The translations under genes were made by a program, and so were the position numbers. 8,424 nt of DNA from Ruminococcus sp. GTDB taxonomy: Bacteria > Bacillota > Clostridia > Oscillospirales > Ruminococcaceae. The notes under the pieces were generated by a model. It ran no database searches, was not told the DNA's origin, and saw nothing but the letters and a program-made list of their open reading frames with translations. Positions within the stretch are counted from its first letter, which is position 1. The number at the start of each line of letters is the position of its first letter. The stretch is taken from positions 1 to 8,424 of the forward strand of contig DMBA01000256.1 in assembly GCA_003446315.1 (NCBI GenBank). Direction: 5' to 3'. This document shows positions 1-3,410 of the stretch, in pieces.

Positions 1-312
1 AAGATGTGGTGGTCACTTTGGTGGTGGTAGTGGTTTCACCGGAAGAAGTGGTTCTATCGGTGGTTGTGGTGGACACATCGGTGATTGTGGTAGTTCCATC
101 GGTGGTTGTGGTAGTGGTTTCACCGGAAGAAGTGGTTCTATCGGTGGTGGTTGTGGTGGTTTCACCGGAAGATGTGGTTCTATCGGTGGTTGTGGTGGAC
201 ACATCGGTGATTGTGGTAGTTCCATCGGTGGTTGTGGTAGTTTCACCGGAAGATGTGGTTCCATCGGTGGTTGTAGTGGTTTCACCGGAAGATGTGGTCA
301 CATCGGTTGTCG
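1..312 (-). repeat. Minisatellite coding the Thr-rich linker
   Basis: Degenerate tandem repeats in the coding frame of the left-edge gene. The core CACCGGAAGA (plus-strand reading, coding SSGE) occurs five times. Between copies lie Thr runs and two unit types: a short one (TTSSGETTTTTDR-like) and a longer one that adds DGTTTITDVSTTTTDR. The long unit appears twice in nearly identical form, separated by one short unit. All visible units keep the reading frame, so gain or loss of units would change linker length without a frameshift. Confidence 0.85.
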
Positions 313-1711
313 TTGTGGTAGTGATTTCGATATCCTCAACAATGATCTCGTCGATGACACGGATGACATCATAATAGAGGGTACCGGAAGTACCATAGTT
401 GGTATCTGCGCTTGCGCTGACTTCCTTATGGGAAACAACATCAACAATGCGCTTGCCTTCCGCAGCATAGATCGAATCGAGCGATGTGTGGATTGCTGCA
501 AGCAGGTCATCGTGCTGATCGTCAGCGATCTTGAAATCAACAGAAGCGTTGTAGCCGTTGATCTGGATATCCCAGTCATAGCCGTCATTTGCAATTGCCT
601 TCACATCAGCGGTGGAAAGGTTGATCGTAGCAGTTGCACCGTAGGACTCATTGAAAGCATTGATGGTCTTGGTGACCCAGTTGTTGACACGCTCACTGTC
701 CAGAGCGCCGGTTGCGGTATCAGGCTGTCTCTTGTCGATTGCATTTTCAGCGCGGTTCACGAGCTTTGCCGGAACGCCGGAGCTTTCGATCGCAGCATCG
801 ACAGCAGCCATATAGTCTGCATAAACAGTGTCGATATCGTCGCCGGAAACGGAAATGTTCTTGCCTGCTTCCACGAGTGCTCTGACATAGCCGTCATAAC
901 GAACAGCCTTATCGAACTTATCGTTGATGAGCTGATTGAACTGCTCAACGGGGCCGCCGGTTGCAGCAGCAGCGCTGAGGATCACGTTTCTGACTTCCTC
1001 AACCTTCGCAAGTGCATAGTTTTCGATCTCATCATCGACATACTTCTTGCCCTTCTCATCGGTGAAGGTGGTCTTATAGGTAACAGTCTTGGACATGTAG
1101 TCGACTTCAGCGGTCACGGTGATATTACCGCTGATCTGAACCTGGCTCCAGTCGATCTTGAAATCAACGCCTGCATCATCAGCGATCCGGTTATTGTTTG
1201 CTCTCTTGAGGTTGTCCTCAAGGATCACAGCCAGAGTCGGCATCATATCCTGAACATCAGCCGTTGCAACAGCAGTACCGTCCGGGCTGACGGTCACGGT
1301 GGTGTCACCGATGCAGTCAAGCAGAGCCTGCACATCTGCGGCGGTCAGATTATTGCTGACCTTTACGCTTTTTTTGCTGTAGTTGTCATACATCTTCTTT
1401 ACACGGTTTCTGATGCTCTGAAGATGCTTGGAAACAGTCTTCTCGGGAGATGCAGTCAACTTCGTATTGAGTTTATCTGCCCAGTCAGACGGCTGTTCTC
1501 TGCCTTCTCTTGTAGCAATTTCCGGATTCTCTTTCGGAATCGGAACATTGAGAACCATCTCCTTGTCAACTACAAGGTTGCCGGATGCATCAGACAATGC
1601 TGCCGTGTCTGCTGCACTGATGTTCACATTTGCTGCAGCAGATGCGATCTGTGTCAGAATGAGAACAGAACTGGATGCAGCGGCGAGCGTGCGCTTAAAA
1701 AGTGATTTCAT
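1..1711 (-). CDS. Secreted protein of unknown function with Thr-rich repeat tail (3' end outside window)
   Basis: The frame is open from an ATG at 1711 to the left edge, giving 570 residues with no stop. The start is supported by AAGGAGAGG a few bases upstream. Residues 1-25 form a signal peptide (KR near the N-terminus, a hydrophobic stretch, then an ASA-type cleavage site near residue 25), so the protein should be exported. Residues 26-460 are a mixed helical/beta region that I do not recognise. It shows a weak internal duplication: NLTAADVQAL at 121-130 resembles NLSTADVKAI at 364-373, and each is preceded by a helical stretch and followed by a DW..QI.G pattern. From residue 464 on the chain is almost all Thr with spaced SSGE, TDR, DGT and ITDVS units, a typical wall-spanning or interdomain linker. 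Anything beyond it (for example a dockerin or anchor) lies outside the window. No catalytic motif is visible. Secretion is well supported; function is unknown. Confidence 0.85.
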   Translation of the reverse strand, partial: MKSLFKRTLAAASSSVLILTQIASAAANVNISAADTAALSDASGNLVVDKEMVLNVPIPKENPEIATREGREQPSDWADKLNTKLTASPEKTVSKHLQSIRNRVKKMYDNYSKKSVKVSNNLTAADVQALLDCIGDTTVTVSPDGTAVATADVQDMMPTLAVILEDNLKRANNNRIADDAGVDFKIDWSQVQISGNITVTAEVDYMSKTVTYKTTFTDEKGKKYVDDEIENYALAKVEEVRNVILSAAAATGGPVEQFNQLINDKFDKAVRYDGYVRALVEAGKNISVSGDDIDTVYADYMAAVDAAIESSGVPAKLVNRAENAIDKRQPDTATGALDSERVNNWVTKTINAFNESYGATATINLSTADVKAIANDGYDWDIQINGYNASVDFKIADDQHDDLLAAIHTSLDSIYAAEGKRIVDVVSHKEVSASADTNYGTSGTLYYDVIRVIDEIIVEDIEITTTTTTDVTTSSGETTTTTDGTTSSGETTTTTDGTTTITDVSTTTTDRTTSSGETTTTTTDRTTSSGETTTTTTDGTTTITDVSTTTTDRTTSSGETTTTTKVTTTS

Positions 1712-1823
1712 TCAAACCTCTCCTTATGAATAGATTATGTACGGGATGTGACTGTGCGGCGGTAATACGGGCTGTTCCTTTACTCTTTGCTGACTACGCA
1801 CTGAGACACATATACATATTGAC

Positions 1824-1852
1824 ATTATAGCATTCTTCTCTTGAAAAAGCAA
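1824..1852 (-). promoter_or_regulatory. Promoter of the left-edge secreted protein gene
   Basis: Read on the minus strand: TTGCTT (1852-1847), 17 bases, then TATAAT (1829-1824), with TGC directly before the -10 (extended -10). Expected transcription start is about 1818, giving a leader of about 107 nt before the ATG at 1711. The -10 is perfect; the -35 matches TTGACA only in TTG and C-to-A-diverged positions, which the extended -10 may offset. No clear structure was seen in the leader. Confidence 0.65.
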
Positions 1853-2072
1853 GCCTTTTTCTTCAAATTGTAAAGATTCTACAAACTCCGCATTTCGGGA
1901 TGTAGCTGTTTAGATAATTTTCACACGGCTTTTCCGAAATTTCCCAGCTAGTTCGTGCGTTTTCGACACTTTCACCTGAAAAATTCATATATCTTCCATG
2001 AGAACATACACCTGATGATGCAAAGATATAATTGTTATAATATAAAAATATATAGATTTTCCATAAAACCTC
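1853..2072. other. AT-rich spacer between divergent promoters
   Basis: No gene is supported here. A short minus-strand open frame covering most of it lacks a ribosome binding site and has an unconvincing composition. The stretch near 2030-2060 is very AT-rich (ATTGTTATAATATAAAAATA-like) and could act as an upstream element for the promoter that follows at 2073. Nothing else was recognised. Confidence 0.5.
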
Positions 2073-2101
2073 TTGACAAATCGAGAAAGATATGATATAA
2101 T
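2073..2101 (+). promoter_or_regulatory. Perfect extended -10 promoter of the putative ncRNA
   Basis: TTGACA (2073-2078), 17 bases, TATAAT (2096-2101), with TGA immediately upstream of the -10. All twelve core bases match the sigma-A consensus, the spacing is optimal and the -10 is extended. Transcription should start near 2108. Such strength is unusual in front of a region with no protein gene and argues for an abundant RNA. Confidence 0.85.
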
Positions 2102-2142
2102 ACAGACATAACAAAGAAATCAATCGCTTAGCTGTTGATTTT

Positions 2143-2350
2143 AAGGAGGCGTTACCAATGGGCTGAGCAGTTTCGTAATCGGAGAAACAAATATCACAGA
2201 AAGGATGTGCTTCCGATGCAGAAGTACGTTTCCGGATAAAATTCCGGCATTCACACTATTATAATATAACGAAACGGACGTGATTCCAATGTACAGGCAA
2301 TCTCAAATTCAAGATTTCTGACAGCCTGAAAGGATGTGTTTCCAATGCAG
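2143..2350 (+). repeat. Four diverged copies of a ribosome-binding-site-like element
   Basis: Copies: AAGGAGGCGTTACCAATG (ends 2160), AAGGATGTGCTTCCGATG (ends 2218), ACGGACGTGATTCCAATG (ends 2291) and AAGGATGTGTTTCCAATG (ends 2347). Consensus from GGA on: GGANGYGNTTMCRATG. Spacing between the AUGs is 58, 73 and 56 nt. Sequence between copies is not conserved. Each AUG would start only a tiny frame (2, 7, 10 and 14 codons) and the peptides share no sequence, so selection seems to act on the nucleotide motif. The GGA...UCC arms of copies 2-4 could form a 3-bp stem with a 6-nt loop. Copies 2 and 4 are followed by CAG. Confidence 0.75.
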
Positions 2351-2427
2351 TCACATTGGTTGATCCTTCAGCAATCCGGAGTGGTATAGACTGGAGTGCT
2401 GAAGATATGAATAAGATAACTTCATAA

Positions 2428-2458
2428 GCAGCACTGTCACCCGTGCAGACAGTGCTGC
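2428..2458 (+). other. Perfect 11-bp hairpin in the putative ncRNA
   Basis: GCAGCACTGTC (2428-2438) pairs perfectly with GACAGTGCTGC (2448-2458) around a 9-nt loop ACCCGTGCA. No T-tract follows, so it is not a terminator itself. It lies 19 bases before the terminator stem and is probably a stable 3' domain of the RNA. Confidence 0.8.
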
Positions 2459-2477
2459 GATATTTCGATATTCATAA

Positions 2478-2513
2478 AGAGGCGATTCGGATTCGGATCG
2501 CTTTTCTTTTTTT
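2478..2513 (+). terminator. Intrinsic terminator of the putative ncRNA
   Basis: A stem of about 9 bp (2478-2486 with 2497-2505, two G-T wobbles, core GCGAT/ATCGC) leads into CTTTTCTTTTTTT. It ends only four bases before the -35 of the next promoter, which separates the upstream RNA from the protease-like gene. Confidence 0.7.
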
Positions 2514-2588: not shown

Positions 2589-3410
2589 ATGGATCCAATC
2601 CAGACATTGCCGGATCTTTTGTTTTCCGGCAGCGTTCTGACCGGATACGCATGCACCGGCATTTTTTATCTGCTGCTGCCCGTTGCCGCTTATCTGATCC
2701 TGCGCAAATTCAGCGAAACAAGGATCTATGCCGTCATAATCGGCTGCATCGTATATTTTCTTTCCGTCAAACTTTGTGATCTCTGCGCGATGGTTGTTGG
2801 TTCCGGTCTGCCGTTTTCGGCAAAAGTTGTTGTTGCCTCTGCATTGGCAGCATTTTTCGAGGAACCCGGCAGATTGCTTGCCATGCGTTATCCGATTGCT
2901 GATATCCGCAAAAACAGTTCTGTCATTTGTTATGCGATCGGGCATGCCGGATTGGAATGCGTCATTCGCGCCATACACGCATTCCGGATCTTCCGAACAG
3001 GCGCGCTTGTGAATCAGCGCGGTCTGCAAAGCATTCTGAACGGCAAATCCGCCGAACAAGCCGCTGCCGCCGCCGCTGAATTGCAGCAATATGCAAACCA
3101 CGATCTTTTCGCCGGCTTCTGGGATATATGCAATGCCGTCACCAATTTCGGCGTACACATTGCGCTTTCCCTGCTGATCTTCAACAAAGCCATCCGAAGC
3201 GGCATCTGGCTGCGCTGGCTGCTCCTCGCAATTCTCCTGCATTATCTGTTGAATGCAGCTGCATTTTTCACCGCATTCAGCCCGAACGCATCGCTTTCCG
3301 GCATGATCGGCTGCGCATGCGGCATCGGCATCGCAGCGCTTGTTTACCGCCTGATCGACGGAAAAGCCGTCATCAACGAAATTCTGTATCCGCTTGCAGA
3401 CAACAACTGA
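2589..3410 (+). CDS. YhfC-family (CPBP-like) intramembrane protease homologue
   Basis: A 273-residue multi-pass membrane protein. The ATG at 2589 is chosen because AAGGAG (2574-2579) sits nine bases ahead; an in-frame GTG at 2571 overlaps that site and is rejected. Hydrophobic segments lie at roughly 15-38, 46-70, 78-90, 112-128, 183-199, 206-228 and 238-255. Conserved-looking polar residues sit in the membrane: FFEEPGR (E91, E92, R95), GHAGLE (H119, E123), H190, and HYLLN (H218, N222). The EExxR, HxxxE and HxxxN set is what I know of the YhfC group, related to CPBP/ABI intramembrane metalloproteases, where such residues are thought to bind the metal. The length fits the family. Substrate is unknown. 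It has its own promoter and shares a terminator with the convergent gene, so it is probably monocistronic. The active-site reading is by analogy. Confidence 0.8.
   Translation: MDPIQTLPDLLFSGSVLTGYACTGIFYLLLPVAAYLILRKFSETRIYAVIIGCIVYFLSVKLCDLCAMVVGSGLPFSAKVVVASALAAFFEEPGRLLAMRYPIADIRKNSSVICYAIGHAGLECVIRAIHAFRIFRTGALVNQRGLQSILNGKSAEQAAAAAAELQQYANHDLFAGFWDICNAVTNFGVHIALSLLIFNKAIRSGIWLRWLLLAILLHYLLNAAAFFTAFSPNASLSGMIGCACGIGIAALVYRLIDGKAVINEILYPLADNN

Follow-up and report, generated by a model that had tools for sequence, protein, structure and literature searches.

A predicted RNA of tandem Shine-Dalgarno and micro-ORF units in a gut Oscillospiraceae genus: a candidate ribosome catcher

The sponge RNAs CsrB and RsmZ are stand-alone transcripts of about 400 nucleotides (nt) with GGA-type motifs that mimic ribosome-binding sites, and CsrA is the best-known protein for GGA repeats. 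Leader-peptide attenuators combine tiny open reading frames (ORFs), strong Shine-Dalgarno (SD) sites, hairpins and a terminator, and minigenes such as lambda barI are reading frames of two codons. We know of no bacterial RNA made up of strong start sites in tandem, each with a stop directly after it, and none was found in Rfam or in a literature search that was mostly without subscription papers, preprints and supplements. The predicted RNA described here lies at positions 2073–2513 of an 8,424-nt stretch of Ruminococcus sp. DNA, referred to in its entirety as the window. Like CsrB and RsmZ, it appears to be stand-alone, is about 400 nt long and has repeated GGA-type motifs; like the attenuators, it has tiny ORFs, strong SD sites, hairpins and a terminator; and its shortest ORF, MG followed by a stop, has two codons, as in the barI minigenes, but is arranged in tandem with others inside a conserved RNA. 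As a lineage-conserved RNA of Bacillota it also resembles ModT, the raiA-motif RNA of Clostridioides difficile, which the accessible part of its source describes as a structured RNA with a mechanism that is not yet clear (PMC11706538).

The stretch 2073–2513 is supported as a discrete transcription unit, with a promoter and a terminator of its own (Table 1) and a predicted RNA gene length of about 400 letters. A sequence-only reading of this DNA had pointed to a perfect promoter, to stable hairpins including a perfect 11-bp one and to an intrinsic terminator, all of which stand. It had also placed an independent promoter for the next gene 4 bases past the T-tract; that promoter is present (2517–2545, 12/12 matches), but the gap to the end of the tract at 2513 is 3 bases (GCA). 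Because the totals returned by the scanners are about those of chance (4 promoters, 3.7 expected; 2 terminators, 1.9 expected), the weight of the promoter rests on its perfect match and on its conservation. Among the 28 elements compared below, TTGACA and the TG are kept in 28/28 and TATAAT in 25/28, and the 24 nt upstream of the -35 have a mean A+T content of 79%. A T-rich tract follows the terminal hairpin within 45 nt in 18 of the 28. Given the consensus promoter, high abundance of the predicted RNA is plausible.

Table 1 Features of the window in and around the predicted RNA gene
Feature	Position	Strand	Details and basis
Divergent gene, secreted Thr-rich protein	2–1711	-	Runs off window
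Divergent control region	1712–2072	.	Neighbour's -10 at 1824–1829, - strand, by eye
A/T-rich tract, UP-element-like	2037–2072	+	5' of promoter; putative role
Consensus promoter	2073–2101	+	TTGACA-17-TATAAT, TG at 2093–2094; 12/12 matches
5' hairpin	2117–2141	+	12-nt arms, 83% complementary; inverted repeat and fold
Unit 1	2143–2166	+	Extended SD AAGGAGGCGTTACC; micro-ORF MG-stop (2158–2166)
Unit 2	2199–2239	+	GAAAGGATGTGCTTCC; micro-ORF MQKYVSG-stop (2216–2239)
Hairpin CCGGA/TCCGG	2232–2247	+	ORF2 stop codon in loop
Unit 3	2272–2321	+	AAACGGACGTGATTCC; micro-ORF MYRQSQIQDF-stop (2289–2321)
Unit 4	2328–2389	+	GAAAGGATGTGTTTCC; micro-ORF MQSHWLILQQSGVV-stop (2345–2389)
Hairpin, loop with TGGTATAG	2366–2404	+	Motif GTGGTATAG at 2381–2389
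Terminal hairpin	2428–2458	+	Perfect 11 bp (2428–2438/2448–2458); loop ACCCGTGCA at 2439–2447
Intrinsic terminator	2478–2513	+	Hairpin 2478–2505 and T-tract; terminator scan

The core of the element is formed by four copies of AAGGAnGyGnTnCCrATG, at 2143, 2201, 2274 and 2330. Each copy joins an SD site to a start codon that opens a micro-ORF, with a stop within 2 to 14 codons. A pattern of two units matches the window at 2 places and 200 shuffles at none. A repeat layout had been recognized from the letters, and repeats are indeed present, but their nature, four units of SD and start codon, had been missed; the companion statement that the stretch holds no credible protein gene is not supported in the strict sense, given four micro-ORFs with early in-frame stops that look selected.

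The element occurs in 28 of 30 sampled genomes of one gut-bacterial genus. A sequence model of its 5' part (R1) gave 27 of these, with one strong locus in each among the matches listed, and in the 28th (G405) the element was recognized by its position beside the divergent gene. In G415 the divergent gene starts 117 bases from the contig end, so that the element would fall off the contig, and in G416 the element was not found. The statistics given here use the elements of the 27 genomes together with that of the window (28 in total, G405 being left out); loci L078, L080 and L081, which are model matches and not arrays, were also left out. The closest relative of the window element in this set shares no more than 66% identity with it. 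An exact two-unit scan of 84,980 species returned ten loci, all in metagenome-assembled genomes (MAGs; Oscillospiraceae 8, Clostridia 1, Ruminococcus 1), and all ten genomes belong to the same genus of 30. These distributions support a lineage-restricted predicted RNA, as far as searched, in keeping with the lineage specificity proposed earlier.

Looser patterns were read against reversed controls. The family-wide single-unit pattern matched 51 places in 39 of 396 genomes (reversed control, 7), and three additional single-unit matches within the genus were read, each lying 5' of a long ORF. The order-wide two-unit pattern matched once in each of 5 of 394 genomes and is not enriched, because its reversed control matched more often (16 hits in 14 genomes); it also missed G010 and G157, both of which have arrays. 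Two of its five matches were read: L143 is an ordinary-looking gene start, and L142 (G453) may be a small array, with TTG starts and a terminator-like hairpin. On contig 30 of G405 a lone SD-MG-stop unit (L089) is located in the leader of a membrane-protein-like gene. A phage origin was rejected, three exact patterns having no match in viral contigs.

The 28 elements comprise 109 units, 2 to 6 per element, after four of 113 CCnATG sites judged to be non-units were dropped. ORF1 is 1–3 codons long in 25/28 elements and ORF2 7 or 8 codons in 21/28, with later ORFs spanning 1–34. The start-codon frame holds an ORF of at most 12 codons in 95 of the 109 units, compared with 33 in one of the remaining frames and 41 in the other; restoring the four dropped sites gives 0.85 versus 0.33 and 0.37 of 113. 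The median ORF is shortest in the start-codon frame in all 28 elements, and among representatives below 65% identity (n = 15, window excluded) early stops were counted in 53/59 versus 48/118 cases (Fisher p = 1e-10). The early in-frame stops look selected, as they would if short translated frames were being maintained by selection. Their restriction to the frame set by the start codon speaks against an RNA with SD-like motifs and nothing more and, taken with the SD sites, they imply that the predicted units would be translated, as a dual-function (coding) sRNA would require. Because the search for units demanded CC and ATG, and the terminal loops were picked out with a few set variants, these letters are conserved partly by construction.

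A further feature of the units is the extent to which they match the free 3' tail of 16S rRNA. Two genomes of the genus have a 16S match, and in the one that was read the 3' end is GGATCACCTCCTTTCT. The unit AGAAAGGAnGUGnnUCC can pair with the whole free tail with two interruptions, at -10 and -6. These two positions vary most within the core; conservation is highest at AAAGGA, at the Gs of -9 and -7 and at the CC before the start codon. Duplexes with the tail have a mean energy of -15.5 kcal/mol over the units and -6.2 kcal/mol over same-letter shuffles. The best SD sites of long ORFs in the same loci average -8.2 kcal/mol (44 non-overlapping ORFs of at least 200 aa), with 1/44 as strong as the unit mean, and -7.8 kcal/mol in a looser set of 87 ORFs that includes overlaps. 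By mean energy, the terminal 16 nt of 16S rRNA are the best of 1501 windows; taken singly, 30 of 86 distinct units have the tail as their top 16S window, with a median rank of 5. Pairing is interrupted though a better match is only a few changes away, so selection is not for maximal binding.

Predicted structure is modest outside the terminal hairpin. The window stretch 2108–2513 folds at -125.6 kcal/mol (z = -6.1, 100 dinucleotide shuffles), and over the 28 elements the mean z is -2.3 (-1.3 without the terminal hairpin), with 8/28 below -2; a globally structured RNA was rejected on this weak set-wide folding. The covarying stems anticipated earlier are thus limited to one strong case, the terminal hairpin, and do not extend to the global fold. 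This hairpin is well supported: 25 distinct rows show compensatory changes at 10 of its 11 pairs, and its cells are paired in 94.2% of cases versus 74.0% in shuffles. Its loop, the conserved CCCGUGCA, is exactly CCCGTGCA in 23/28 elements and is predicted to contact a protein or an RNA. The ORF2 stop lies in a hairpin loop in 15/28 elements, above the 38/140 of control windows, and the equivalent counts for ORF1 (8/28 versus 29/140), ORF3 (6/27 versus 35/135) and ORF4 (7/20 versus 28/100) are not clearly above control; RNAalifold returned zero consensus pairs for the ORF2 region. The GGUAUAG hairpin was rejected as a conserved fold, GGTATAG being present in 12/28 elements and its covariation score being equalled by 77/500 shuffles. 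In predicted folds, with unit regions scored as a whole, start sites are unremarkable in accessibility, being 0.42 unpaired versus 0.44 for the rest, and 0.39 with shuffled surroundings.

Against Rfam 15, the window stretch matched only L20_leader at E ≤ 10 (18.1 bits against a gathering score of 58.7, E = 8.8). In four scans covering 42 loci (16, 13, 11 and 2, including L107 and 12 of the 27 window-genus element loci), only tRNA and 6S RNA reached gathering, outside the arrays. The earlier reading of the RNA as possibly new is supported insofar as no Rfam family reaches gathering within the arrays. tmRNA was rejected, ARAGORN finding none in the window or in 12 sister loci.

The genes on the two sides of the element behave differently. 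The sequence-only reading had envisaged relatives upstream of unrelated genes, and downstream genes do mostly differ among the 28 elements, but on the upstream side all of them share one divergent gene: a gene start like AGGAGAGGTTTGAATGAA is found 310–396 bp from the element in 28/28. Automatic ORF clustering joined 21 of these 28 neighbours, and the rest were judged by their start region. Relatives of the divergent protein amount to 22 hits, most of them without a name and one named as an Oscillospiraceae hypothetical protein. Three full-length relatives that were read end in repeats that we take to be dockerin-like, and Pfam gave only weak EF-hand hits. A hairpin in the 5' leader of the divergent gene (window 1712–1900; L052–L079), which in the window reads AUGUAUAUGUGUC...GACACAU-CCCG-UACAU, and a promoter region that has a TTTGTnGAATCTTTACAATTTG-like stretch upstream both recur among the elements in varied form (by eye). 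The element is followed in the window by a gene for a YhfC-family intramembrane protease at 2589–3410 (PF10086, 56.6 bits), which has a consensus promoter of its own.

Similar arrays occur outside the genus. The R1 scan of the family gave 14 of 197 genomes at E ≤ 1e-6, three of them inside the window genus, and in a second genus, that of G157, R1 matches occur in 15/31 genomes at E ≤ 1e-5 (L112 and L115–L128). There the array diverges from a DUF1292 gene in 13/15 loci (Pfam check in one) and is close to 6S RNA, which is above gathering score in 11/15; RuvX was found in the one locus checked. The order of the array is MKR or MKRHxxx, MKLARSWI, a GCA unit, MNVNKHKIL and MNRCxTA, each peptide ending at a stop codon, followed by a terminator; L122, L123, L124 and L128 (4/15) depart from it. 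The GCA unit, present in 15/15 loci (near 1730 in L112), reaches a stop after 3–5 codons, and its duplex with the 16S tail averages -18.2, stronger than that of the window-genus units. R2, a model of the second-genus core, matched 5/297 family genomes, four of the second genus and G259, whose array (L138, at the end of contig 34) has at least ten tail-complementary units (mean -14.6) with a 201-nt higher-order tandem repeat, ends at a terminator-like hairpin and is cut by the contig end. L138 also has tail-site units with GCA or ACA at the start position, mostly with an in-frame stop within a few codons. If the units do capture ribosomes, GCA and ACA units would mean capture without ordinary initiation. 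The sister arrays may have common ancestry with the window RNA or may share only its design. The DUF1292/6S locus of the window genus (L129, L130, L131; L093/L094) has a different stretch there, about 700 nt to a terminator-like hairpin in the two loci read through; its strand shows no long ORFs but one SD site and an ORF of 20–21 aa.

The architecture of the element is well supported, and from it we infer a function. Judged on sequence, the element is likely to be a regulatory RNA that catches ribosomes, and not a protein gene or an RNA that is non-coding throughout. In the mechanism we favour, the four predicted start sites, in tandem and able to pair with the free 16S 3' tail, would capture initiating ribosomes and the window-genus units would be translated; each capture would lead to quick release at the nearby stop, upon which the site could reload. 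Overall, the RNA would act in trans on initiating ribosomes, titrating or buffering them, and this effect may be tuned to the divergent gene for the secreted protein. That 2073–2513 specifies a stand-alone, abundantly transcribed RNA acting in this way has, in our estimate, slightly less than an even chance of being correct. More tentatively, it may represent a new class of RNA, the micro-ORF array, which through tandem tail-complementary capture with built-in stops would buffer or sense translation initiation globally in gut Oscillospiraceae.

The peptides themselves could be the product, the element being an ordinary if extreme mRNA, a micropeptide operon. Such an operon would account for the second-genus ORF2, which encodes MKLARSWI in 11/15 loci with synonymous differences only (ORFs extracted by position; earlier pattern-based counts lean to synonymous changes, being third-position changes only at some codons) and in the remaining four encodes other peptides that share an ARSG core. 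It would also account for ORF4, where MNVNKHKIL (7/15) or a close variant (4) occurs in 11 loci, with another peptide in 1 and none found in 3. Retention of MKLARSWI through synonymous changes supports translation in the second genus. In the window genus, ORF2 opens with MQK, MQR or MQE followed by Y, L or A in 19 distinct sequences, but codon-position bias is absent from ORF2 there (16, 19, 15), so that only the sister family offers evidence of translation at the level of the peptide. An ORF1 of just 1–3 codons in most elements and sister units with GCA or ACA in place of ATG also sit poorly with peptides as the purpose, and we consider this reading unlikely. The units might instead mimic ribosome-binding sites to titrate an RNA-binding translation repressor, as in a CsrB-like protein sponge. 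The repeated GGA motifs, the strong promoter and terminator, the stand-alone form and a spacer conserved beyond the SD core would suit this, and a single match elsewhere (L049) lies ahead of an Ala/Lys-rich gene, a possible target. CsrA (PF02599) was detected in 0 of 10 element-bearing genomes of the 28, MAGs that may be incomplete, with the PF02599 control positive in E. coli, B. subtilis and T. maritima; this makes a CsrB-type sponge unlikely, and a CsrA sponge was rejected. In-frame stops within a few codons would moreover be needless in a pure sponge, which we regard as improbable. The protein binding proposed from the letters is not directly supported; as a whole, that interpretation is partly supported.

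Just as improbable, in our judgement, is a base-pairing regulatory RNA that acts through the terminal loop CCCGUGCA, with micro-ORFs that only load ribosomes and so shield the transcript from Rho and nucleases. The conservation of the loop above a covarying stem and the constant divergent neighbour speak for it, but it leaves 16S-tail complementarity beyond an ordinary SD unexplained, and none of the 16 sister loci scanned contains CCCGTGCA. A role as leader or attenuator for the next gene, which is yhfC-like in the window, would explain the micro-ORFs and terminators, which are attenuator hallmarks, and L089 provides one genus member with an MG-stop unit just 5' of a protein gene. With downstream genes that vary between elements and, in the window, a next gene that has its own consensus promoter past the terminator, we consider it highly improbable. 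The ribosome catcher remains our preferred reading.

Set against described systems, the window RNA departs from each. Unlike CsrB and RsmZ, its units have start codons, early in-frame stops and a match to the 16S tail, and its hosts are without detectable CsrA (0/10). Unlike leader-peptide attenuators, its ORFs are in tandem, no downstream gene is constant and the next gene in the window has a promoter of its own. Unlike ModT, which is described as a structured RNA (PMC11706538), it matches no Rfam family, folds weakly overall and is made of SD-ORF units. The sister array near 6S RNA and DUF1292 shares a similar promoter, 16S-tail-like units, micro-ORFs and a terminator, and differs from the window RNA in its sequences and locus, its conserved peptides, its GCA unit and its lack of a CCCGUGCA loop. 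Gene finders generally ignore ORFs of 2–10 codons and RNA finders seek conserved folds, so micro-ORF arrays could slip between the two and point to a blind spot of both. If the RNA holds initiating ribosomes, it would constitute an RNA-level valve for translation initiation, comparable to 6S RNA for RNA polymerase, and the sister array of this proposed valve sits close to 6S RNA itself.
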